Shown here: piece after piece, positions 1,459 through 21,313 of the stretch
Layout of the letters: each line of letters opens with the position of its first letter
Numbering within the stretch: position 1 is the stretch's first letter
DNA from: a virus
Direction: 5' to 3' (one strand)
Length of the DNA: 21,313 nucleotides
IMG/VR virus record: IMGVR_UViG_3300039191_000075
Location: 1 to 21,313 of that record
Program-made: the position numbers and the translations under genes
The notes under the pieces: generated by a model
Database searches by the model: none
What the model was told of the DNA's origin: nothing
What the model saw: only the letters and a program-made list of their open reading frames with translations

Positions 1459-2064
1459 ATGACCGAGATCACTGCAAAGTTCATCGGTGCAGAAAAGACT
1501 ATTGTTTCTTTCACAGGGTTGATTACAGAACCTAGAGGAATTAACACAGAGTTCTTTAACGTATACAAGCTGGGCTACAATGTAATCTTTGTATCCGATC
1601 TGTCAAGGTCGTGGTTCAACAACATTGACATTGACAAGATCAAATCGCATATCCAAACGGACGAGGTGATGTGTATAGGAAACAGCATGGGCGCATTCAA
1701 CGCCACTATGTTTTCTAACTATCACCCAGTCTCAAAAGTCATTGGCTTTGCCCCGCAATATTCTGTTCATCCTGACATAGTTCCTTGGGAGCCACGCTGG
1801 ACAGGACTTCGAAAAAGAATCAACTATTCAAGATGCAAAGAGATGCAGTTTGCAGATTCGACTGACTATCTGTTTATCGCAGGCTCGCACTCACACGAAG
1901 TAAACCATATAAATATGATACCCGATCAACAAAACATATCAAAGTTTGTGATAGACGGGGATCACGGGATAGCAGCACAATTGAAGACAAAAGAAAAGCT
2001 GTATCCGATTATTGAAAATTATCTAATCGATAAGGATGTTTCGCACGTAGAAGAGTTACTATGA
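1459..2064 (+). CDS. alpha/beta-hydrolase-like protein
   Basis: A 201-residue protein. The stretch MCIGNSMGAF (residues 71-80) is a nucleophile elbow of G-x-S-x-G type with Ser76 as the likely nucleophile. GDHG near residues 167-170 gives a candidate catalytic His169, and an acidic residue between them is possible. This is the arrangement of small serine hydrolases or esterases, some of which act on capsule or O-antigen precursors. It is the first gene of the island, 9 bases after uvsY, and its stop overlaps the ATG of the uvsY-tail ORF (ATGA). Substrate unknown; a deacylase for a modified sugar would fit the neighbours but is inference. Confidence 0.6.
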   Translation: MTEITAKFIGAEKTIVSFTGLITEPRGINTEFFNVYKLGYNVIFVSDLSRSWFNNIDIDKIKSHIQTDEVMCIGNSMGAFNATMFSNYHPVSKVIGFAPQYSVHPDIVPWEPRWTGLRKRINYSRCKEMQFADSTDYLFIAGSHSHEVNHINMIPDQQNISKFVIDGDHGIAAQLKTKEKLYPIIENYLIDKDVSHVEELL

Positions 2065-2156
2065 GAAAAAGATGTCTTAATGATAAAGAAAGGTGGCAGC
2101 AATGGAGCTACGTAATAAAACTTGGAGTAGCAGGAATGGACGATGCTAGTTTATGA
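2061..2156 (+). pseudogene. 31-codon ORF carrying a duplicated uvsY C-terminus
   Basis: The ORF starts at the ATGA overlap with the hydrolase stop and ends at an ATGA overlap with the next gene. Residues 19-31 are VIKLGVAGMDDASL-like, matching the last residues of UvsY (IKLRVAGMEDASL) at 11 of 13 positions. At DNA level 35 of 42 bases match 1408-1449, with most differences in third positions, so the copy comes from a diverged uvsY allele rather than a recent duplication. The first 17 residues (MRKRCLNDKERWQQWSY) are not recognisably UvsY. It is probably a remnant left by gene insertion. It may still be translated as a coupling peptide. Confidence 0.75.
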
Positions 2157-7417: not shown

Positions 7418-7831
7418 TCAGTAACCTAAGAAGTCAAAATCGTGTTTGAAAACATGCTCTATGATTTTCCTAGAACTAAGCGTCATCTCAACATTTACAT
7501 TTTGATACTTTGTATTTTCATGTGGCAGCGGGTTGAAATAACCTAGCTGTTCTTGAATTGTAGCAAAATCCTTTTGTACGTTCTCAACTTTAATTATCGA
7601 ATCTACCTTAACATTTCCCGGATAACCGTTATCAGTGAGCCAGTATATCTGATTGGTTTTAAACTTGTATTCTGGGCTGAAATCAAGGTCTTTAATAGGA
7701 GTGTGCATCCTATGATAATCAACTGAGTCGCCGTAGATGTCTTCGTACCACCGCCGTACACTTGTACCTGCCGACTTAGGTACATGTACAAACACGCTGC
7801 TCTGATTGGCGTCAGTAACCGAATACGTCAT
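7418..7831 (-). CDS. shortened sulfotransferase paralog (internal deletion)
   Basis: A 137-residue protein with the PAPS loop VFVHVPKSAGTSVRRWY (PKSAGTS at 18-24) and a C-terminal part FKTNQIYWLTDN...IIEHVFKHDFDFLGY that closely follows the gene at 10018-10731. The middle of the family, including the 3'-phosphate motif (VVRNPYSRAVSWY in the paralog), is missing at about residue 50. About 100 residues are gone without breaking the frame. It is therefore probably inactive or altered, although it stays in frame and coupled: its ATG directly follows the stop of the upstream transferase. Confidence 0.7.
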   Translation of the reverse strand: MTYSVTDANQSSVFVHVPKSAGTSVRRWYEDIYGDSVDYHRMHTPIKDLDFSPEYKFKTNQIYWLTDNGYPGNVKVDSIIKVENVQKDFATIQEQLGYFNPLPHENTKYQNVNVEMTLSSRKIIEHVFKHDFDFLGY

Positions 7832-8680
7832 TTAGATCTTCTGTTGCCAGTAATCCAATCCGTGGTCTACAATAACATCGCTGGCTTTTGAACGGCCTTG
7901 ATGCTTACGATCTCCTTTTAAATGGTCAATCCATTGACCTAGTACACAATTGATTAACGGATGTCCGCCACCGCCTGTCTTGGCTGTTCGTATGTACATG
8001 TCTGCAGAATAGTCAAGAACGTTAGAGTGCTTAACGTTCTTGCGTTTTAGTATGTCGCCGAACACGTAACTGTCGTGCCATTCGTCAAGAGTGAAGATAC
8101 CATTTTCTGCATCTTCGTAAAACTGTTCAAGCTCTTGTAGGAATTCTTGACAGGCCACGTTCTTTACATTCAACCCGTAAAATCCACACTCGGGCCAAGT
8201 CTGTGCAGCCTTGCCTCGTCCAACGTATGTGAGCCATTTATTGTTCGGCAGCAGGGCGTTAAACTCTTCGTAGCTCCACGGAGAGTGCACAAAGGTATCA
8301 GCGTCAATCCATACACACCAATCACTTGAGCGGTTACAGGCATCTAGTACAGCGTAGATCTTATTTGCAAATCTGACTGCATCCCACTTGAAAGCCTTGT
8401 TACTGTCCCTGCGCCTACTTCTTACAGGATCTTGAGATATGTCGCCATTGGCTTTGGGGACATTGCCCCACCTGTTCTTAAACTGACTGAGCTTGCGTAA
8501 CACCTTTGCATCGAATATTGTGATGTTCTCTGGGCTGGGATTAACAGGTGAACAGTCCTCAGCATAAACCAATAACTTGATACGCTTGTCAACGTTTTCA
8601 GCAAAACTGTCTAGAAAACGCTGACCGTATAGATCTAATCCAGGCTTATGAAAAGTAGTGACTAGTGTGATGTCTTTCAT
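7832..8680 (-). CDS. putative GT-A-like glycosyltransferase
   Basis: A 282-residue protein starting MKDITLVTTFHKPGLDLYG, with CVWIDADTFV (122-131) whose D-A-D is a typical GT-A metal site, and a later HDSYVF/GGGGHPLINCVLG region. Proteins of this type occur in marine T4-like phages as unnamed sugar transferases. It sits in the middle of the sulfotransferase array, with the shortened paralog after it and the two loop-variant paralogs before it, 2 bases from its neighbour. Role in the same glycan pathway is inferred from position. Confidence 0.6.
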   Translation of the reverse strand: MKDITLVTTFHKPGLDLYGQRFLDSFAENVDKRIKLLVYAEDCSPVNPSPENITIFDAKVLRKLSQFKNRWGNVPKANGDISQDPVRSRRRDSNKAFKWDAVRFANKIYAVLDACNRSSDWCVWIDADTFVHSPWSYEEFNALLPNNKWLTYVGRGKAAQTWPECGFYGLNVKNVACQEFLQELEQFYEDAENGIFTLDEWHDSYVFGDILKRKNVKHSNVLDYSADMYIRTAKTGGGGHPLINCVLGQWIDHLKGDRKHQGRSKASDVIVDHGLDYWQQKI

Positions 8681-8682
8681 AA

Positions 8683-9348
8683 TTAGTAGTTAAACTTCTC
8701 AAAGTCGTTGGCAAATACTTCTTCGATAATCGCACGTGACTTTTTTGACATTCTAAAGTTGTTAGTCCTAAGCTCTTTTTCTGCGCCTGTGTACAACTGA
8801 ATGCCGTCATCAATACCGGTTGCTTGCTGGACTTGAGCAAACTCTTCATCAAAGTTTTCAAACCTGATGATGTAGTCGATTTTATCACCTGGTACTGTGT
8901 CGGTTGAGTCGTTGCTTAACCATTGACATTGTGTAAAAGTGAACTTATGACGTGCACCCGACCAGCCGCCTTTGTCAACGTCTTTGCCCATAAGAAAAGA
9001 TGCTTCTTGATAGAACTGACTAAGCCATGCGTCAAACCCCTTTTCCCAAACCGAAAGTTCAAACGCAGCCTTTGGGTTTTTCTTTTCTAGACCACGCAGT
9101 ACTCCGCCGTGGAAGTTATACCAACCAATTGCACGATCATATGGATTTCTTACTATAGACCATGTAACGTAATTCGACATATCGAAGCCGGTGTTCATGT
9201 ACTCGTAGTTTGCTGAAAACGGCGCATCCATCTCCTCGTAGTTGTTCTTGTACCAATAAAATATGTTTGGTGATTCAGCACCGACAACAGTGATATACGC
9301 ACTGTCTTTGATGCCGTCTTTGTCGTTGTTTGTACCGAGGTAACTCAT
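8683..9348 (-). CDS. sulfotransferase paralog with degenerate PAPS loop (copy 1)
   Basis: A 221-residue protein. It keeps the 3'-phosphate motif SIVRNPYDRAIGWY (64-77), the WEKGFDAWL and QCQWLSND regions and the family tail EVFANDFEKFNY. Where the paralog at 10018 has HITKCAGSSV, this one has VVGAESPNIFYWY (21-33), without the P-K-x-G-S/T loop lysine. Its nearest relative is the adjacent gene at 9361. GGAGAAGAG lies just upstream of the ATG. It may be a non-catalytic or neofunctionalised sulfotransferase-fold protein. Confidence 0.68.
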   Translation of the reverse strand: MSYLGTNNDKDGIKDSAYITVVGAESPNIFYWYKNNYEEMDAPFSANYEYMNTGFDMSNYVTWSIVRNPYDRAIGWYNFHGGVLRGLEKKNPKAAFELSVWEKGFDAWLSQFYQEASFLMGKDVDKGGWSGARHKFTFTQCQWLSNDSTDTVPGDKIDYIIRFENFDEEFAQVQQATGIDDGIQLYTGAEKELRTNNFRMSKKSRAIIEEVFANDFEKFNY

Positions 9349-9360
9349 TTCTCTTCTCCG

Positions 9361-10014
9361 TTAATAATTGAAATATTCAAAATCGCTTGCAAATATTTCT
9401 TCAATGATTTTCTTAGAGCCCGACGTCATTCCGAAGTCGTCTCCCCTTAATGAAAAGTCTGTAGAGTCGTAGATGTTAACATCTTCAGTTATTCCTAAGA
9501 TTTCTTTTATCTCAGGAAGCTCTTTATCAAACTCTTCAAATTTTACAATCTTGTCAATACAAGGTTTAGAACGACTCAAATCGTTAGTAAACCACTGACA
9601 CTGATTAAAAACAAATGCAAATCGTTCAGTAGTGTGCCCTGTGTCGTCTATTAAGCTATCAATGATATAGTTTGCTGAATATGCAAAGTGTCTAAGCCAA
9701 ACATCAAACCCTTTCCTCCACATTGAAAACTCAAACTCGACTATAGGGTTAATAACACTGTGATACCTCAAGAACACCCCATATAGGTAATACCATCCAA
9801 CTGCTCTATCATACGGGTTCCTTACAAGTCCCCAAGTAAAACAGTCGTTTGATATAGCTGGCTTTAGAAAATCATACGGTGCAAATGTGTATGAATCGCA
9901 GTTAGGATAATTTTCTAAGTACCAATGAAACAAGTTAATAGGACCGGCACCCGGCGCGACTATGAGTGCACTTTCGCGTAGATTGCTGTTTGTTGCCCAG
10001 CCTATACATGCCAT
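9361..10014 (-). CDS. sulfotransferase paralog with degenerate PAPS loop (copy 2)
   Basis: A 217-residue protein. The 3'-phosphate motif GLVRNPYDRAVGWY (62-75) and the FVFNQCQWFTND block are present, with tail EIFASDFEYFNY. The 5' loop reads APGAGPINLFHWY (20-32), glycine-rich but again without the conserved lysine. It shares the altered pattern (…NLFHWY / …NIFYWY) with the gene at 8683, so the change predates their duplication. It is part of the minus-strand run, 3 bases after the canonical paralog. Activity uncertain. Confidence 0.68.
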   Translation of the reverse strand: MACIGWATNSNLRESALIVAPGAGPINLFHWYLENYPNCDSYTFAPYDFLKPAISNDCFTWGLVRNPYDRAVGWYYLYGVFLRYHSVINPIVEFEFSMWRKGFDVWLRHFAYSANYIIDSLIDDTGHTTERFAFVFNQCQWFTNDLSRSKPCIDKIVKFEEFDKELPEIKEILGITEDVNIYDSTDFSLRGDDFGMTSGSKKIIEEIFASDFEYFNY

Positions 10015-10017
10015 GTG

Positions 10018-10731
10018 TTAATATCCCAAACGCTCGAAGTCGTCCTTAAAGATATGTTCGATAGCTCTTTTAGACTTCTTGTTTAGCGTTACCTTCTTTG
10101 ATATCAAAGTTTTATTTACAAATTCTAAATCTCGTGTTGTATTTAACAAATTTTTAATCGTTTGAAAGCCACTGTCGAGGTTTTCTACGCGCACAATGTG
10201 ATCTATACACAGCTTGTTATTGCTGTCAGTTAGCCAGTACGTTTGGTTAGTTTTAAAGTGATACCACATAGGGTCTACAGTTGACCTGGCACTTTGCCTA
10301 GGATCCAGCGATGCAGTGTCTGCGTATCGCTGAATCCAATAGTCAAAGCCTTTCTCCCACGCTTTTATTTCTACAGGATCGATCTCAAAGTCTCTCTGAT
10401 CAACAGTCCTGTCCAGCTGTGGAAACTGATACAGTACATAGTCTCGACCGTATTGTTTTTCTTGTTCCTTGAACGTTTGGGCCAGCTTCATCATATGTCC
10501 GTGATACCGGTACCAGCTCACTGCCCTACTGTAGGGATTTCTTACAACTGTCCACGTCATGTAGTTACTGCAATCGTAATTTTCTAAAAAGTACGACACC
10601 GGACGATGTGGAAGAAAGTCTGCATGTTTGGGTGAGTATCGCTGGTGATAGAAATTTGTCACACTAGATCCAGCGCATTTAGTGATGTGAATAAAGATGT
10701 GTTTCGGATCCTTGTGGACTATTATCGACAT
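10018..10731 (-). CDS. sulfotransferase, canonical member of the minus-strand paralog set
   Basis: A 237-residue protein with PAPS loop IFIHITKCAGSSVTNFY (TKCAGSS at 17-23) and 3'-phosphate motif TVVRNPYSRAVSWY (61-74), followed by FKTNQTYWLTD and tail HIFKDDFERLGY. This is the only member of the four-gene array with both motifs intact. It is first in the minus-strand run, after a divergent promoter region, with AAAGGA before the ATG. Probable substrate: a sugar hydroxyl in the glycan made by the neighbouring transferases (inference). Confidence 0.78.
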   Translation of the reverse strand: MSIIVHKDPKHIFIHITKCAGSSVTNFYHQRYSPKHADFLPHRPVSYFLENYDCSNYMTWTVVRNPYSRAVSWYRYHGHMMKLAQTFKEQEKQYGRDYVLYQFPQLDRTVDQRDFEIDPVEIKAWEKGFDYWIQRYADTASLDPRQSARSTVDPMWYHFKTNQTYWLTDSNNKLCIDHIVRVENLDSGFQTIKNLLNTTRDLEFVNKTLISKKVTLNKKSKRAIEHIFKDDFERLGY

Positions 10732-11684: not shown

Positions 11685-12992
11685 ATGAGTGTATATTCTG
11701 TTGAACACATCTTAAGAATGCTGGTAGGCCTTGACAATTCCAAGGGCCATTTTACTATTCCTGCTGGCGACAGGCCTGTAATCAGCAGCATCGCAAAACA
11801 GGTAACCCGTGGCACCGGCCTTACAGAACGTCAGCACGATCTTGTCAAGAGCAAACTGCTAGGCGTGCATTATGTCACGCAGTTTTACCGTCAAGGTGTT
11901 ACTCCCCACGAGTATGAAAAAGCTCTAGCAACAACTGATCTGCCTCTAAGAGAGATTGATCGAACTATGTCTATTGAACTTATAAACTCAATTGCTGACG
12001 AAGACATTAGCCAGTTCCTGGCGCAGCGATACGAAGATCGACTTAACTCGCCGTGGGTCAAAGTAACGTTTCCATTTAGTAAACGCATCATAACACTACT
12101 TGACAGTGTCAAAGAACACACCCAAGAAGTTATTCATTCGTCTGGTTCAAATAGCCAGTACTTCAAGTTCAACGAACGTATTGTATTCATGCTTCTAAAA
12201 ATATTTGAAGGCGAAGGCTTTGAGGTCGACAACGAGCTAACCGAGTATCTCAAAAAACTTGAGACCATAACCAAAAACAAGACTGCATATCTTCCCTACG
12301 CAAAAGAAGGTGTAGTGGAAAATCTGCATCCCGAAGCTCAATCAATTCTTGAGAGCAAGTTAGGCAAGCCTTCTGTCGAGAACTTCTTTCAGTACAAAGA
12401 CCGTTCTGTTCTATTTGATATTAGGTATTTCGACGAAGAACTGTTAGAGCAGTCAACAGAGAGATGTTCATCGCTTACAAAGAGGTTAATCAAACGTGAG
12501 TCAGTGCAGGTGCTAACAAGCCCAGCAGACTACACTATTGAAGAGATTGTAGAGTCGCTGATTGAGCTCAAGAGGTTCCCAGTGATGTGCATAGTGACTA
12601 ATCCTGACTCAGTAAGGGCTGTGTACAAAATACTTAAACACTGCACCTCTAATAACGAAGTAAGTGTGCTGTTTAGAATGGACAACGTCGTTGACCCAGA
12701 CTTCAACAAGTTTGTGAAAGACAACGAACTGAACTCGCCTGTGACTGATCACACAAAGGTTGTGTTTGTGTCAAAAGACAAACTTCCTAAGCCGTTGGTC
12801 AAGAGTGGCTGGTACCCAGAAGCTATTCTTCGAGTAGGCAGCACCCGCGTTCAGACTAAGATCGATCAGTGGACAACAGACTGCGATCTAGTAGTTCACT
12901 ATGACACTGTGGCATCGCCTTGGGTAAACCCGCACAGTAACAACGTTAGAAAAAGCAAGAAAAGGATTGTTGAAAAACTATATGGCGTGTAG
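11685..12992 (+). CDS. conserved phage protein of unknown function upstream of uvsW
   Basis: A 435-residue protein beginning MSVYSVEHILRML, with a Gly-Thr-Gly-Leu-Thr-Glu-Arg-Gln stretch near residues 48-55 that recalls large uncharacterised proteins of marine T4-like phages. I see no Walker, zinc or nuclease motif, no signal peptide and no membrane segment. The second half alternates beta-strand-like hydrophobic runs (FPVMCIVTNPDS, VSVLFRMDN, HTKVVFVSK), suggesting alpha/beta domains perhaps related to a helicase or nucleotide-binding fold without its catalytic motifs. Its end overlaps the uvsW start by 11 bases, so a function with UvsW is plausible but inferred. Confidence 0.7.
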   Translation: MSVYSVEHILRMLVGLDNSKGHFTIPAGDRPVISSIAKQVTRGTGLTERQHDLVKSKLLGVHYVTQFYRQGVTPHEYEKALATTDLPLREIDRTMSIELINSIADEDISQFLAQRYEDRLNSPWVKVTFPFSKRIITLLDSVKEHTQEVIHSSGSNSQYFKFNERIVFMLLKIFEGEGFEVDNELTEYLKKLETITKNKTAYLPYAKEGVVENLHPEAQSILESKLGKPSVENFFQYKDRSVLFDIRYFDEELLEQSTERCSSLTKRLIKRESVQVLTSPADYTIEEIVESLIELKRFPVMCIVTNPDSVRAVYKILKHCTSNNEVSVLFRMDNVVDPDFNKFVKDNELNSPVTDHTKVVFVSKDKLPKPLVKSGWYPEAILRVGSTRVQTKIDQWTTDCDLVVHYDTVASPWVNPHSNNVRKSKKRIVEKLYGV

Positions 12993-14004
12993 ACTAATAA
13001 TACAAGACGAAGTAAACATAAAACTAGAAGGGCTGCCTGTTGACATTCGACGCAAATGTGCAAGCGCCTTAAAGTACGAAGTTCCTTATGCTAGACACAT
13101 GCCTCAATACAAACTGGGCAGGTGGGACGGCAAAGTCGGGTTTTTTGGAATCGGCGGCAGCGGTTACTTAAATCACCTCGACAGGGTTATCGAAGTTCTC
13201 CAAAAGAACGGAATTGAAATAGATGACATAGTTGACAACCGTGAAGTTTACAGTTTCAACTTTCCTAAGGTTACAGAAGAATTTTGGGGAGATACCTGTT
13301 GGTCAAAGGGACACCCAGCAGAAGGGGAGCCCATTCGACTTCGCGACTATCAAGTAGAAGTCATCCAAAACTTTGTTAACAATCCTCAAGCATTACAAGA
13401 AGTTGCAACAGGCGCTGGTAAGACAATTATCACAGCTACATTATCGAAGCTAACCGAGCCGTATGGTCGCAGTCTTGTTGTAGTGCCTAACAAGAGCCTA
13501 GTTAGTCAAACAGAAGAAGACTATGTAAACTGTGGTCTTGATGTAGGCGTGTACTTTGGCGATAGAAAAGAACTTGGTGCGACACATACTATCTGCACAT
13601 GGCAGTCACTAAATGTCCTCGACAAGAAACACAAAGACGGATCGGGTGTACTGAGCCTTGCTGAGTTCCTAGAAGGCGTATCTACTATCATTATAGATGA
13701 GTGTCTTGACGGCGACACATTAGTTACAACTCCAACAGGGAAAGTTGCTATAAAGCACTTAGAGGTCAATGACGTAATAATTAACTTATGCGAAGAAACA
13801 AACACATATAAAGAAGACGTTATAGTTAAAGTACATAAAAATCTGTCAAACAGTGACTCTGAGAATATGCTAGAGTTAGAGTTTGACAACGGTAGTGCTA
13901 TTAAAGTAACAGCCAACCATAAGTTTTTAACTAACAAAGGCTGGGTAAGAGCAGACCAGCTAACTGATGATCTAGATATTATTGACATAAATACATACGG
14001 CTAA
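12982..14004 (+). CDS. uvsW: UvsW helicase N-half fused to N-intein
   Basis: UvsW is an SF2 helicase that unwinds R-loops and branched DNA in T4 and helps move replication from origins to recombination. Residues 1-240 are the N-extein: an N-terminal domain (LGRWDGKVGFFG), motif Q/I with Walker A ATGAGKT (Lys147), and the start of motif II, IIIDE. Residues 241-340 are a 100-aa N-intein that starts with Cys241 (CLDGDTLVTTP, block A) and holds block B (VTANHKF), then stops. The protein therefore lacks motifs III-VI and must be joined to the product of 14913-15755. ATG 12982 is chosen over upstream TTG codons because it aligns with UvsW starts. Confidence 0.85.
   Translation: MACRLIIQDEVNIKLEGLPVDIRRKCASALKYEVPYARHMPQYKLGRWDGKVGFFGIGGSGYLNHLDRVIEVLQKNGIEIDDIVDNREVYSFNFPKVTEEFWGDTCWSKGHPAEGEPIRLRDYQVEVIQNFVNNPQALQEVATGAGKTIITATLSKLTEPYGRSLVVVPNKSLVSQTEEDYVNCGLDVGVYFGDRKELGATHTICTWQSLNVLDKKHKDGSGVLSLAEFLEGVSTIIIDECLDGDTLVTTPTGKVAIKHLEVNDVIINLCEETNTYKEDVIVKVHKNLSNSDSENMLELEFDNGSAIKVTANHKFLTNKGWVRADQLTDDLDIIDINTYG
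13702..14001 (+). other. N-intein (IntN), 100 residues
   Basis: It begins with Cys1 and CLDGDTLVTTP (block A), and has LELEFDNGSAIKVTANHKF (block B with the T-x-x-H pattern). The end, DIIDINTYG, is where natural split inteins such as cyanobacterial DnaE IntN (about 102 aa) also stop. Length and motif order match functional trans-splicing inteins. Confidence 0.88.
13986..13993 (+). promoter_or_regulatory. T4-type late promoter inside IntN, CATAAATA
   Basis: CATAAATA within the last N-intein codons, 25 bases before the endonuclease ATG. The spacing is similar to other late octamers here. It would transcribe the endonuclease and the C-half of uvsW late, apart from the N-half. Confidence 0.5.
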
Positions 14005-14017
14005 AGGAGAAGTGTTT

Positions 14018-14926
14018 ATGGCAAAGAGTTTTGATATTGACAAGTTTAATAGAATTCTAAAGAGTTTTGCCCAAACGGTATGCGCAGAGAGTATATCGGT
14101 AAACGAAATAAGATTATCTAACGGAGTAACTATGACCACCAAGCGAGACATTCGCTTGTGTAAAAAAAGAGTAATGTCCGGCCATGCTGTATGGAAGGAA
14201 GAGTTTGACAGTTTGTATAGCACCGATATTACTGTTAGATTGCTTGCTGAAAAAACAGCAAGAGCAGTTACTTCAAAGAACGGTGGCATATCTTGTCAAG
14301 CAAAACACAGCAATAAGATAAAGGAAAACCTAAATAACGGAACACCTTGGAATAAAGGAATGAAAGGCAACTACCCTTATTCGTTGCCGGTGTCAGACGG
14401 AACTAAGAAAAAAATTAGTCTAGCAAATCAGGGCATCAAAAACGGAATGTACGGAAGTACAATGTCGTTAGCTGATCGGCAGCATCGTAGTAAAATAATG
14501 AAAGAAAAGATCTTAGCTGGAACATTTACTCCGAACTCTAATAACAGAAACACTCATTGGGATTCTTGGTACAGCGGCAAAATGTACAGGAGCTCGTGGG
14601 AAGCATTGTACCAATATTTCGACCAAGACGCAGAATACGAAACCGTACGCATCCCGTATACATTTAACGACATTGACTGCGTGTACATAGTTGACTTCGT
14701 TAATCATAGCAAACGACAGTTAATTGAAGTAAAACCTGCGGAATTGTTACATGACAAAAAGACCAAAGCAAAGCTAGCGGCAGCAGCCTCGTGGAGCAAA
14801 CAAAACAATTATGTATTCATAATCGCAGATAAGGATTTTCTCATCGCAAAAGGAGTTCCTGAGAGTTTAGAAAATTTCGACGCTAGTACACAAAACAAAA
14901 TTAGGAAGTTATATGAAATTAGTTAA
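14018..14926 (+). CDS. free-standing homing endonuclease, NUMOD3 plus PD-(D/E)xK/EDxHD-type domain
   Basis: A 302-residue protein. The middle has two NUMOD3-like DNA-binding repeats: NGTPWNKGMKG (107-117) and NGMYGSTMSLADRQHRSKI (142-160). The C-terminal nuclease-like domain has YRSSWE (Glu195), VYIVDF (Asp226) and LIEVKP (Glu237, Lys239), a pattern of Vsr-like EDxHD or PD-(D/E)xK homing nucleases. The start is ATG 14018, 8 bases after AAAGGAG, which overlaps the IntN stop. The end overlaps the C-intein start by 14 bases. It would be expected to cut intein-free uvsW alleles near the DECH codons (inference). Confidence 0.78.
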   Translation: MAKSFDIDKFNRILKSFAQTVCAESISVNEIRLSNGVTMTTKRDIRLCKKRVMSGHAVWKEEFDSLYSTDITVRLLAEKTARAVTSKNGGISCQAKHSNKIKENLNNGTPWNKGMKGNYPYSLPVSDGTKKKISLANQGIKNGMYGSTMSLADRQHRSKIMKEKILAGTFTPNSNNRNTHWDSWYSGKMYRSSWEALYQYFDQDAEYETVRIPYTFNDIDCVYIVDFVNHSKRQLIEVKPAELLHDKKTKAKLAAAASWSKQNNYVFIIADKDFLIAKGVPESLENFDASTQNKIRKLYEIS

Positions 14927-15017
14927 GAAGACAGTTATTAACAAGCCAGAAACTGTGTACAACTTACACGTTAAGAATGATCACAATTACATTGCTAATG
15001 ATACAGTTGTAGCAAAT
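14913..15017 (+). other. C-intein (IntC), 35 residues
   Basis: Starts at its own ATG, has block F (VYNLHVKNDHNYIA) and block G (TVVAN followed by Cys). Length equals that of DnaE-type IntC (about 35-36 aa). Confidence 0.88.
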
Positions 15018-15755
15018 TGCCACCAAGCAAAGGCAGAAGTGCTCAAACGAATTCTAACACAGAATCTTAAGAATGCACCTATCCGTTGGGGCCTAACTGG
15101 TACTGTACCTAAGGAAGCATTTGAGTTTGAAAGCATTCATGCTAGTCTTGGTCCTGTGATTGGCAAAATAAGTGCAAAAGAGTTACAAGACAAAGGCGTT
15201 CTGTCAAAGTGTCATGTAAATGTATTGCAGCTAATGGACGTTCAGGTGTTCCGCGATTACCAGTCAGAACTAAAGTACCTTGTGTCTGATCCCGACAGGA
15301 TTGCCTATATTGCATCAGTAATGAATCAAGTCAAGCAGTCAGGTAACACGCTTATCCTAGTTGACAGGATATCAGCAGGCGAGATGTTGCAAGAACTAAT
15401 TCCAGGCAGCACATTCATCTCTGGGTCGGTAAAAGCCAATGACCGAAAAGAAACTTATGATACAATTCGAGAAGGAACAAACGAAGTAATCATTGCCACA
15501 TACGGTGTAGCAGCCGTTGGTCTTAATATTCCTCGTATATTCAACCTTGTGCTACTAGAGCCAGGCAAGAGTTTTGTGCGAGTAATACAGTCTATTGGAC
15601 GTGGCGTTCGTAAAGCAAAAGACAAGGACTTTGTGCAGATATGGGATCTCACATCAACTTGTAAGTTTGCTAAGCGACACCTTAGAGAACGAAAGAAGTT
15701 TTATAAAAACGCAGAATACCCCTTCACTATAGAAAAAGTGGACTGGACAAAATAG
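14913..15755 (+). CDS. uvsW: C-intein fused to UvsW helicase C-half
   Basis: Residues 1-35 are the C-intein: ETVYNLHVKNDHNYIANDTVVAN covers blocks F and G and ends in the essential Asn35. The penultimate residue is Ala, not His, as also in cyanobacterial DnaE inteins. Cys36 is the +1 nucleophile and begins the extein CHQAKAEVLKR. The helicase part then has LTGT (61-64, motif III-like), EVIIATYGVAAVGLNIP (motif V region) and QSIGRGVRK (226-234, motif VI), as in T4 UvsW. The spliced product would be about 485 residues, near the T4 length. AGGAAG 5 bases upstream supports ATG 14913. Confidence 0.87.
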   Translation: MKLVKKTVINKPETVYNLHVKNDHNYIANDTVVANCHQAKAEVLKRILTQNLKNAPIRWGLTGTVPKEAFEFESIHASLGPVIGKISAKELQDKGVLSKCHVNVLQLMDVQVFRDYQSELKYLVSDPDRIAYIASVMNQVKQSGNTLILVDRISAGEMLQELIPGSTFISGSVKANDRKETYDTIREGTNEVIIATYGVAAVGLNIPRIFNLVLLEPGKSFVRVIQSIGRGVRKAKDKDFVQIWDLTSTCKFAKRHLRERKKFYKNAEYPFTIEKVDWTK

Positions 15756-20213: not shown

Positions 20214-20279
20214 ATGAGCGCAGTTGCCGATACAACCTTAACATACCTACCAGCGAAACGCAAGACCACTCCTAGTGGT
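20214..20279 (+). pseudogene. 5' remnant of a diverged primase (gp61) gene
   Basis: The first 22 codons, MSAVADTTLTYLPAKRKTTPSG, align with the start of the intact primase at 21072 (MSIVSDVSIAYYTQGSKVKTTPSG), with 11 identities and a 2-residue gap. After SG the similarity stops and the frame runs into the endonuclease. The copy is too diverged for a fresh duplication, so it probably came from another phage allele. Confidence 0.72.
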
Positions 20280-20297
20280 GTATTTTCTTACTTTATG

Positions 20298-20305
20298 TAT
20301 AAATA
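20298..20305 (+). promoter_or_regulatory. T4-type late promoter for the GIY-YIG gene, TATAAATA
   Basis: Perfect TATAAATA, 23 bases before the endonuclease ATG at 20328, with AAGGAG (20312-20317) between them. Confidence 0.6.
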
Positions 20306-20327
20306 CACAACAAGGAGCATTAAAGGT

Positions 20328-21071
20328 ATGTTTTATTTATATGTAAAAACTCATAAAAAAACTGGATTAAAATATTTAGGGCAAACATCTAGAGATCCGT
20401 ATGTTTATAAAGGATCTGGATTAAGGTGGACCAATCATATTAAAAAGCACGGTTACGATGTTGATACTTTAATATTATTAGAAACAACAGATAAAGTTGC
20501 ATTATCAGAAGCAGGACTGTATTATAGTAATTTGTATAATGTTGTAAATGATTATAATTGGGCAAATATAGTTGCAGAATCAGGAACAGGCGGCGATACT
20601 TCTAAAAGTCCTAATTTTATTGAATCCATGAAGCACCGAGATTTTTCGTACAGACAAGATCTAAAGTATAAAGAAAAAGTATCTATAGCAGTAAAAAAAT
20701 ATTGGAACACTAGATTTGAAGATCCCTCTTTTAATAAAGAAGAATATAAAAAGATGTGTTCTGAAAGAAGTAAATCTATGTGGGAATCTCGAGGTATTAC
20801 AGACGAAGATAGGATATTACGTTCAAAAAGACAAACAGAATATTTAAATACTCCGGGAGTTAAGGAATCATTATCACAAAAAGCTAAAGCAGCCTGGCTT
20901 AAAAAGTCAAAAACGTATGAAGTAACATTTCCAAACGGCCATACAGAAGTTGTAAAATCATTTAGAGGATGGTGCAAGGATAATAATTATCCTTATTATA
21001 AACTGTATAATACTATTAGAAATAACAAGCCGTCAAAAGATGGATGGCAAGTGCGGATAATTGAGGATTAA
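20328..21071 (+). CDS. GIY-YIG homing endonuclease (Seg-like)
   Basis: A 247-residue protein. The N-terminus FYLYVKTHKKTGLKYLGQT (2-20) is a GIY-YIG variant (YLY…KYLGQT), followed by YKGSGLRWTNHIKKHG and a candidate catalytic Glu61 (SEAGLYYSNLYNV). The middle is lysine- and arginine-rich. The end, TEVVKSFRGWCKDNNYPYYKLYNTIR, looks like a modular DNA-binding helix-turn-helix. The true start is ATG 20328 after AAGGAG; the longer frame from 20214 only reads through the primase remnant. Base composition is visibly more AT-rich than the neighbours, as in imported endonuclease genes. It lies directly before the primase gene, its probable homing site. Confidence 0.82.
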   Translation: MFYLYVKTHKKTGLKYLGQTSRDPYVYKGSGLRWTNHIKKHGYDVDTLILLETTDKVALSEAGLYYSNLYNVVNDYNWANIVAESGTGGDTSKSPNFIESMKHRDFSYRQDLKYKEKVSIAVKKYWNTRFEDPSFNKEEYKKMCSERSKSMWESRGITDEDRILRSKRQTEYLNTPGVKESLSQKAKAAWLKKSKTYEVTFPNGHTEVVKSFRGWCKDNNYPYYKLYNTIRNNKPSKDGWQVRIIED

Positions 21072-21313
21072 ATGTCAATAGTTTCGGATGTATCAATTGC
21101 ATATTATACACAAGGTAGTAAAGTAAAAACTACACCAAGCGGCTGGATGTCAAGAAACGCACCCTGCTGTCATCATAATGGTCATTCACCAGACGATAGA
21201 GGCAGAGGTGGGTTCAAAACCAGTCCAGACGGCGGAGCAAGTTATCACTGTTTCAACTGTGGCTTCAAAGCATCTTGGCGTCCTGGACGCAACCTATCTG
21301 TCAAGTATAAGAA
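21072..21313 (+). CDS. gp61-type DNA primase (N-terminal part, cut by window edge)
   Basis: The first 80 residues are visible. A zinc-ribbon pattern is present: APCCHHNGH (Cys32, Cys33, His34-35, His38), then GGASYHCFNCGFKASWRPG (Cys60, Cys63). This is the primase zinc-binding domain as in T4 gp61 and DnaG relatives, which reads the priming site on ssDNA. GAGGATTAA sits immediately upstream of the ATG. The catalytic TOPRIM part is beyond the window. It works with the gp41 helicase in the phage replisome. Confidence 0.78.
   Translation, partial: MSIVSDVSIAYYTQGSKVKTTPSGWMSRNAPCCHHNGHSPDDRGRGGFKTSPDGGASYHCFNCGFKASWRPGRNLSVKYK

Follow-up and report, generated by a model that had tools for sequence, protein, structure and literature searches.

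It is an open question by what route lytic phages, with no integrase, swap accessory genes such as those for surface sugars, and this question is raised in concrete form by a 21,313-nucleotide stretch of viral DNA (IMG/VR record IMGVR_UViG_3300039191_000075; hereafter the window) in which the end of the recombination gene uvsY occurs twice, once in its own place and once behind a hydrolase-like gene. One possibility, put forward in an earlier sequence-only reading, is that the hydrolase gene was inserted by recombination at the uvsY tail with an allele from another phage. Alternatively, the second tail may be the scar of a mobile homing endonuclease gene (HEG) that lay there before the hydrolase.

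The window opens with a partial uvsX, a small ORF, uvsY, the hydrolase-like gene, a 31-codon ORF and a glycosyltransferase family 25 (GT25) gene, followed by further genes that look sugar-related; the features from uvsY to GT25 are on the + strand. The uvsY gene (994-1449), which encodes a recombination mediator, is intact, ends in the first tail (1408-1449), and matches PHROG 231 (UvsY-like, 6.5e-18), with a Pfam UvsY score below threshold (16.5 of 22.8 bits). It is closest to the UvsY of jumbo phages (52-53% to Agrobacterium phage Atu_ph07 and Salicola phage SCTP-2), and our UvsY protein search in phages returned 58 records, with one place per record. The next gene (1459-2064) resembles alpha/beta-hydrolases (Pfam Hydrolase_4, 3.9e-4, under the cut-off); its relatives were found in L081 only among viral contigs, and in phage records the two matches, to an Acinetobacter phage, were weak (34% identity, with 47% of the query covered). 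The GT25 gene (2153-2854) is assigned by Pfam Glyco_transf_25 at 8.7e-21. A Pfam scan of the window genes between 994 and 7417 returned no integrase or transposase, and the locus does not class as an integrase-type element with att sites.

We compared the two uvsY ends and found that the last 13 codons and stop recur at 2115-2156, with 35 of 42 bases identical to 1408-1449. Seven codons differ, five of them silently (including the stop, TAA to TGA) and two with residue changes (R142 to G and E147 to D). When the window was shuffled 200 times with dinucleotides preserved, the top ungapped match for this 42-mer was 28 of 42; in the real window the best sites after 2115 reached 23 (+ strand) and 22 (- strand), and a repeat search returned the tail repeat as the longest direct repeat in the window (40 nt, 85%). 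The 31-codon ORF (2061-2156) shares an ATGA with both neighbours, at the hydrolase stop (2061-2064) and at the GT25 start (2153-2156), and the second tail contains the GT25 start codon. Its uvsY-like part is limited to 2115-2156; the leading 54 bases (2061-2114) are not uvsY. The second tail agrees with the uvsY tail of L082 at 40 of 42 bases, more closely than with the window's own uvsY. The sequence-only reading was therefore right that the tail recurs with mostly silent changes, that the ORF overlaps both neighbours, and that the allele in the second tail has a history separate from that of the first. All 80 relatives have R at residue 142, where the second tail has G, which points to relaxed constraint; because of this substitution, the copy is probably no longer maintained as UvsY protein. 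The L081 contig has the same arrangement as the window, at 100% identity across 3606 bases.

At least 80 relatives encode UvsY, and the 80 loci sampled all carried one uvsY tail only: no second tail was found among them, the single further match above the limit, in L047, being weak and unrelated, and tblastn found no second uvsY in those loci. The hydrolase is missing from all 80 of these single-tail relatives, which agrees with the sequence-only reading. Codons 130-137 of the window's uvsY (1381-1404, + strand) encode a rare allele, SKGFSINN, where most relatives have QKQWQITN; among the 80, QKQW occurs in 77 and xKGF in 3. The SKGF allele is also present in L106, which has an intact endonuclease gene, and in L161 and L162, in which that gene is broken, all three contigs combining an endonuclease gene with a uvsY tail. 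The 80 single-tail relatives gave no mechanism, and the informative loci were those from the GT25 and epimerase scans.

Between uvsY and an epimerase gene, L106 contains a 282-codon ORF (243-1091), which is fused to a uvsY tail and ends RKRCLNDKERWKQWNYVVKLRVAGMDDASL, comparable to the window's 31-codon ORF, which reads MRKRCLNDKERWQQWSYVIKLGVAGMDDASL. The first 18 codons of the latter (MRKRCLNDKERWQQWSYV; 2061-2114, + strand) match the C-terminus of the L106 endonuclease at 46 of 54 bases and 15 of 18 residues, and the whole ORF matches L106 at 84% (E 6.7e-15, against the collected loci). The L106 protein exceeds the Pfam cut-offs for both LEM-3_GIY-YIG (31.7 bits, cut-off 27) and NUMOD3 (21.8, cut-off 20.4), falls under that for NUMOD1 (17.6, cut-off 22.8), and matches a PHROG annotated 'homing endonuclease' at 1.1e-10. 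It would be free-standing, with uvsY reading through to its own stop ahead of it. The window's 31-codon ORF, which has no Pfam or PHROG match and is missing the nuclease domain, is a remnant and not itself a homing endonuclease. At the junction between hydrolase and stub (2058-2074, + strand), ACTAT(G/T)AGAAAAAGATG is common to the window and the endonuclease gene save for a single base.

Scanning with the L106 endonuclease gave 12 loci (L160-L171), of which L160 is the L106 contig again and L167 a weak match. Near-identical genes in L161 and L162 are broken by an in-frame stop and a 1-nt deletion, respectively, and L163-L166 carry relatives at 60-61% that follow an intact uvsY and have no uvsY tail. 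In a single lineage (L168-L171; 0-1 differences in 2000 nt), approximately the last 24 endonuclease codons are left behind uvsY. In all, related endonuclease genes lie after uvsY in seven contigs and remnants in four more; the stop, the deletion and the remnants show HEG decay. As a separate observation, the remnant at L168:4989-5127 (also in L169, L170 and L171) is an independent endonuclease scar, 98% identical to the end of the intact L166 gene. The right-hand junction between endonuclease and tail lies a few codons apart in L106 and the window as against L161 and L162. Relatives in isolate phages reached at most 42% identity among the best 20 of 51 matches. We conclude that the 31-codon ORF is very probably the scar of a mobile HEG, composed of an HEG stub, a displaced uvsY tail and the start of GT25.

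The L106 contig suggests how such an arrangement could arise. Across the 215 nt of uvsY present in L106, all 34 differences from L102 fall at position 146 or beyond, and all 31 differences from L161 fall at position 142 or before. The L106 endonuclease ends in a 47-nt uvsY tail identical to L102 at 47 of 47 bases, and downstream of this displaced tail there are zero differences from L102 and L105 over more than 690 nt. Given that the differences split at 142/146, and that the 47-nt tail and its flank equal L102, L106 reads as an L102-type phage to which an L161-type phage has given uvsY codons 130 onward, a new stop, a spacer and the endonuclease, and which has kept its own tail: it is L102-type to uvsY codon 129, L161-type through the endonuclease, and L102-type again from the 47-nt tail. 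What read as the empty site (L102), the donor (L161) and the product (L106) are all present among natural contigs. These contigs are of environmental origin and show some redundancy, and many break off inside uvsY (L082, L083, L106). The window and L106 have one and the same insertion point with respect to uvsY. Site-specific cleavage and homing by the L106 endonuclease are putative, read from this footprint.

A related change is visible between L102 and L103, which differ at 40 of 2492 aligned columns, mostly within ~70 nt at the uvsY end, a pattern that reads as a switch of uvsY allele. The uvsY end of L103 (4975) joins an SKGF-type upstream part to an L102-type end. A predicted joint of the two L106 tails at GACGATG matches L103 save for five mismatches just upstream and one in the epimerase, and L103 could have arisen by excision between two tails of an L106-like locus. 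We dropped the idea that L103 is a clean excision product, as gene conversion over a short tract, with an SKGF phage as the source, would account for it equally well.

For the window itself we propose a history in which the order of events is our inference. A free-standing GIY-YIG HEG of the kind in L106, L161 and L162 would once have lain between uvsY and GT25, having entered near uvsY codon 138, and its cutting would have driven the exchange. The incoming DNA would have given uvsY a complete new 3' end along with the HEG, and the resident tail and everything downstream would have been pushed back, the tail becoming the C-terminal end of the HEG, in frame with it. Loss of the HEG body would have followed, and the hydrolase gene would have come to stand in its place, joined at the short common sequence. 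What would have remained is the end of the HEG, 18 codons long, and the displaced tail (2115-2156, + strand), most likely since the tail holds the translation start of GT25. Because the 18 endonuclease codons lie between hydrolase and tail, the endonuclease would have been present first, with the hydrolase replacing its body. GT25 was probably once the direct neighbour of uvsY. It directly follows a full-length uvsY by a 4-base overlap in L084 and L089, probably the older layout, and it likewise follows a contig-truncated uvsY in L082, where the contig ends 148 nt upstream of GT25 and a full uvsY is not proven.

Several observations count against the scar. The window has no intact HEG, and the former presence of one there rests on the 18-codon stub. 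As in L082, the displaced tail of the window belongs to the SKGF type, not to the QKQW type that was entered in L106. The offset of the right-hand junction in L161 and L162, the truncated uvsY of L082, an epimerase tail with no recognised stub (described below) and the redundancy of the environmental contigs weigh on the same side. SKGF is the allele of the endonuclease-bearing phages themselves. Either the HEG also enters or tolerates the SKGF allele, or a later crossover in the tail exchanged the downstream DNA.

Turning to the genes that follow uvsY, we located uvsY in 104 non-duplicate loci, 101 of them with a next ORF. Start positions were counted in 82 of the 104, leaving aside the window, 16 loci from the epimerase and endonuclease scans, and five in which the next gene was not clear. 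Counted from the uvsY stop, the following gene begins at -4 (21 loci), -14 (31) or -1 (6), making 58 of 82 starts inside or overlapping the uvsY end and 24 behind it, with some of these loci near duplicates. Once two short ORFs were dropped, 99 next genes fell into 21 clusters, including methyltransferases, GT25, GT8, cytidylyltransferases, an epimerase, GSCFA and the endonuclease. The uvsY 3' junction is a hotspot. Because the uvsY end carries the start codon of many different neighbours, a kept tail copy would keep the next gene translatable.

The epimerase gene provides a second example of cargo. In L083, uvsY is followed by the epimerase gene and then by a second uvsY end (residues 91-151) that overlaps GT25. 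The epimerase scan gave 59 loci, and a near-identical epimerase (0-4 differences in 1026 bases) is present in six contigs, L083 and L102-L106. In each of the six, uvsY precedes the epimerase and a second uvsY end follows it; in L106 the endonuclease gene intervenes upstream. This second end is one sequence, or nearly so, and then gives way to three downstream sequences that split at GATG near its end (L083/L103, L104/L105 and L106, the five contigs reaching GATG; L102 ends before it). L104 and L105 have the downstream gene in common and differ in sequence inside the tail. Recombination inside the tail would be the simplest reading of both patterns. No endonuclease stub was recognised in the 61-codon epimerase tail, and an endonuclease origin of that ORF was set aside. 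Because this tail is without an endonuclease remnant, not all insertions bear the mark of a homing endonuclease, and a second route may exist.

These data could also mean that the endonuclease is a mere passenger, with the uvsY tail serving as a docking site at which ordinary recombination, via the next gene's start signal, can fit any gene. The variety of next genes, the 58 starts that overlap the uvsY end, and the constant epimerase tail that splits three ways at GATG are all as this explanation would have them. However, the L106 mosaic, in which a new tail and endonuclease came in between unchanged flanks, is the expected outcome of homing, and the recurrence of related endonuclease genes behind uvsY in seven contigs, with remnants in four others, also speaks against a passenger. 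We regard the docking explanation as unlikely.

Direct insertion of cargo, as first suggested for this locus, would have the hydrolase arrive as part of another phage's uvsY-hydrolase pair and be joined illegitimately to the resident tail, with no endonuclease involved. The epimerase, with its uvsY tail in six of six contigs and no recognised endonuclease stub, indicates that tail scars may form in this way, but of the 54 bases that separate the window's hydrolase from the tail, 46 agree with the endonuclease gene, which makes direct insertion quite improbable here. The sequence-only reading thus holds for the foreign allele and for the junction behind uvsY as a cargo hotspot, and gives way where it places the hydrolase against the tail itself, since 18 endonuclease codons separate them.

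It is very improbable that the 31-codon ORF represents a small gene in its own right or a leader for translation coupling. It does stay open and overlap both neighbours by ATGA, as does the 70-codon tail ORF behind the epimerase in L083, which overlaps its two neighbours, and translation coupling may be the reason that the ORF was kept. Yet it matches nothing in Pfam or PHROG, its copy of the otherwise invariant residue 142 is changed, and it has no relatives away from uvsY: in IMG/VR, a back-translated pattern of its non-uvsY part occurs in two contigs, each time adjoining uvsY, namely L081 and L172 (the L106 contig). The observation that would have refuted the sequence-only reading, conservation of this ORF at a distance from uvsY, was accordingly not made. 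An assembly artefact or an intron is hardly credible, even for a metagenomic virus record, given that the same junction occurs in L081 (weak independent evidence, as L081 may share the window's habitat), that Rfam has zero matches in the window, by which a group I intron was ruled out, and that the uvsY and endonuclease genes of the relatives each have their own start and stop codons.

With the HEG scar as the preferred reading of the window, a broader account can be offered tentatively, as one that we would put a little short of an even chance. The uvsY 3' tail may be an integrase-free cassette port of jumbo phages, at which every arrival of a gene supplies a new uvsY end and moves the previous tail, with the start signal for the following gene, downstream, so that the accumulated tails record successive insertions. 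Recombination between tails would swap or remove cargo and could leave an intact, endonuclease-resistant uvsY, as in L103, and a homing endonuclease that cuts the port would drive the turnover of sugar-modifying genes. Read in this manner, L106 has three tails: that of uvsY, that of the endonuclease, and that of the epimerase.

Other parts of the window and its relatives carry further elements. Within 20214-21071, a GIY-YIG-like homing endonuclease ORF (PHROG 314, 3e-6) is followed by a primase relative (21072-21311), and a diverged copy of the start of that next gene seemingly precedes the endonuclease ORF (MSAVADTTLTYLPAKRKTTPSG versus MSIVSDVSIAYYTQGSKVKTTPSG). This duplicated start, at 20214, may be a mirror image of the uvsY case, at a 5' end; it is weak at the DNA level and had no DNA match in phages. 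An intein splits a UvsW-type helicase (12967-15755) at its DEAH box. The two parts of the intein are on different ORFs, which flank an endonuclease-like ORF (14012-14926; TnsA-like/NUMOD3); in L001 the intein is continuous without that ORF. The uvsX gene of L001 (4218-5784) apparently has an intein at the P-loop, across two ORFs, and the stretch of uvsX present in the window, its start cut off, has no insertion of this type. On the - strand at 7418-10731, several neighbouring ORFs show sulfotransferase-like motifs by eye (e.g., VRNPYDRA) and have the look of tandem paralogues.

At the uvsY locus, natural contigs show a single site in its donor, recipient, recombinant, decayed and scarred forms, with breakpoints placed within a few bases. 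This yields concrete predictions of which uvsY allele is cut and where new genes are joined. A short ORF that follows a core gene can be the scar of homing, and such ORFs can help to place cargo insertions in temporal order.

Several known systems resemble parts of this arrangement. The free-standing endonucleases of T4 carry out intronless homing with co-conversion of flanks, for example, segA at uvsX and segE at uvsW (PMC2988022), and here too a GIY-YIG gene lies beside a recombination gene, with flank co-conversion and UvsX/UvsY recombination. In contrast, none of the 12 free-standing insertion sites given in that review is behind uvsY; its available text describes split genes (nrdA, gene 60), and neither displaced duplicate tails nor the string 'duplicat' was found in that text. 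SegB-driven segmental amplification (PMC13096335) is similar in that a phage HEG and UvsX/UvsY reshape cargo genes, although the outcome described in the portion available is tandem amplification and not tail displacement. In HEG-islands of phages (PMC10448857, in its available parts), HEGs at gene-exchange boundaries move cargo, as we propose here. Such islands are defined by HEGs around essential genes, at least two of them flanking conserved cargo; our case concerns one site beside surface-sugar genes at which displaced tails are left. A second HEG-like ORF lies in the window at 20328-21071.

The anatomy as a whole is known from fungal mitochondria; our limited literature searches, mostly outside subscription journals, found no phage case of a displaced duplicate gene tail. 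According to the accessible parts of these reports, mobile endonuclease ORFs displace gene C-termini in Glomus sp. (atp6, atp9, cox2 and nad3) and Allomyces (atp6) (PMC3630166), and C-terminal duplications of cob and atp6 accompany HEG ORFs (PMC6279837). As in those elements, an intact hybrid gene has a new C-terminus, an endonuclease ORF lies behind it, and the native C-terminus is displaced and closer to a relative's allele; the atp9 case likewise involves a GIY-YIG endonuclease (PMC3630166). The foreign C-terminus is complete in L106, which equals L161 after position 142 of 215, and the displaced tails resemble the empty relatives both in L106 (47 of 47 to L102) and in the window (40 of 42 to L082). 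The endonuclease ORF is present in L106, broken in L161 and L162, and reduced to a stub in the window. Unlike the fungal elements as described there, those studied here belong to phages and not to organelles, the displaced tail serves as the C-terminus of the endonuclease itself and contains the next gene's start, and the endonuclease body in the window appears to have been replaced by a cargo gene.
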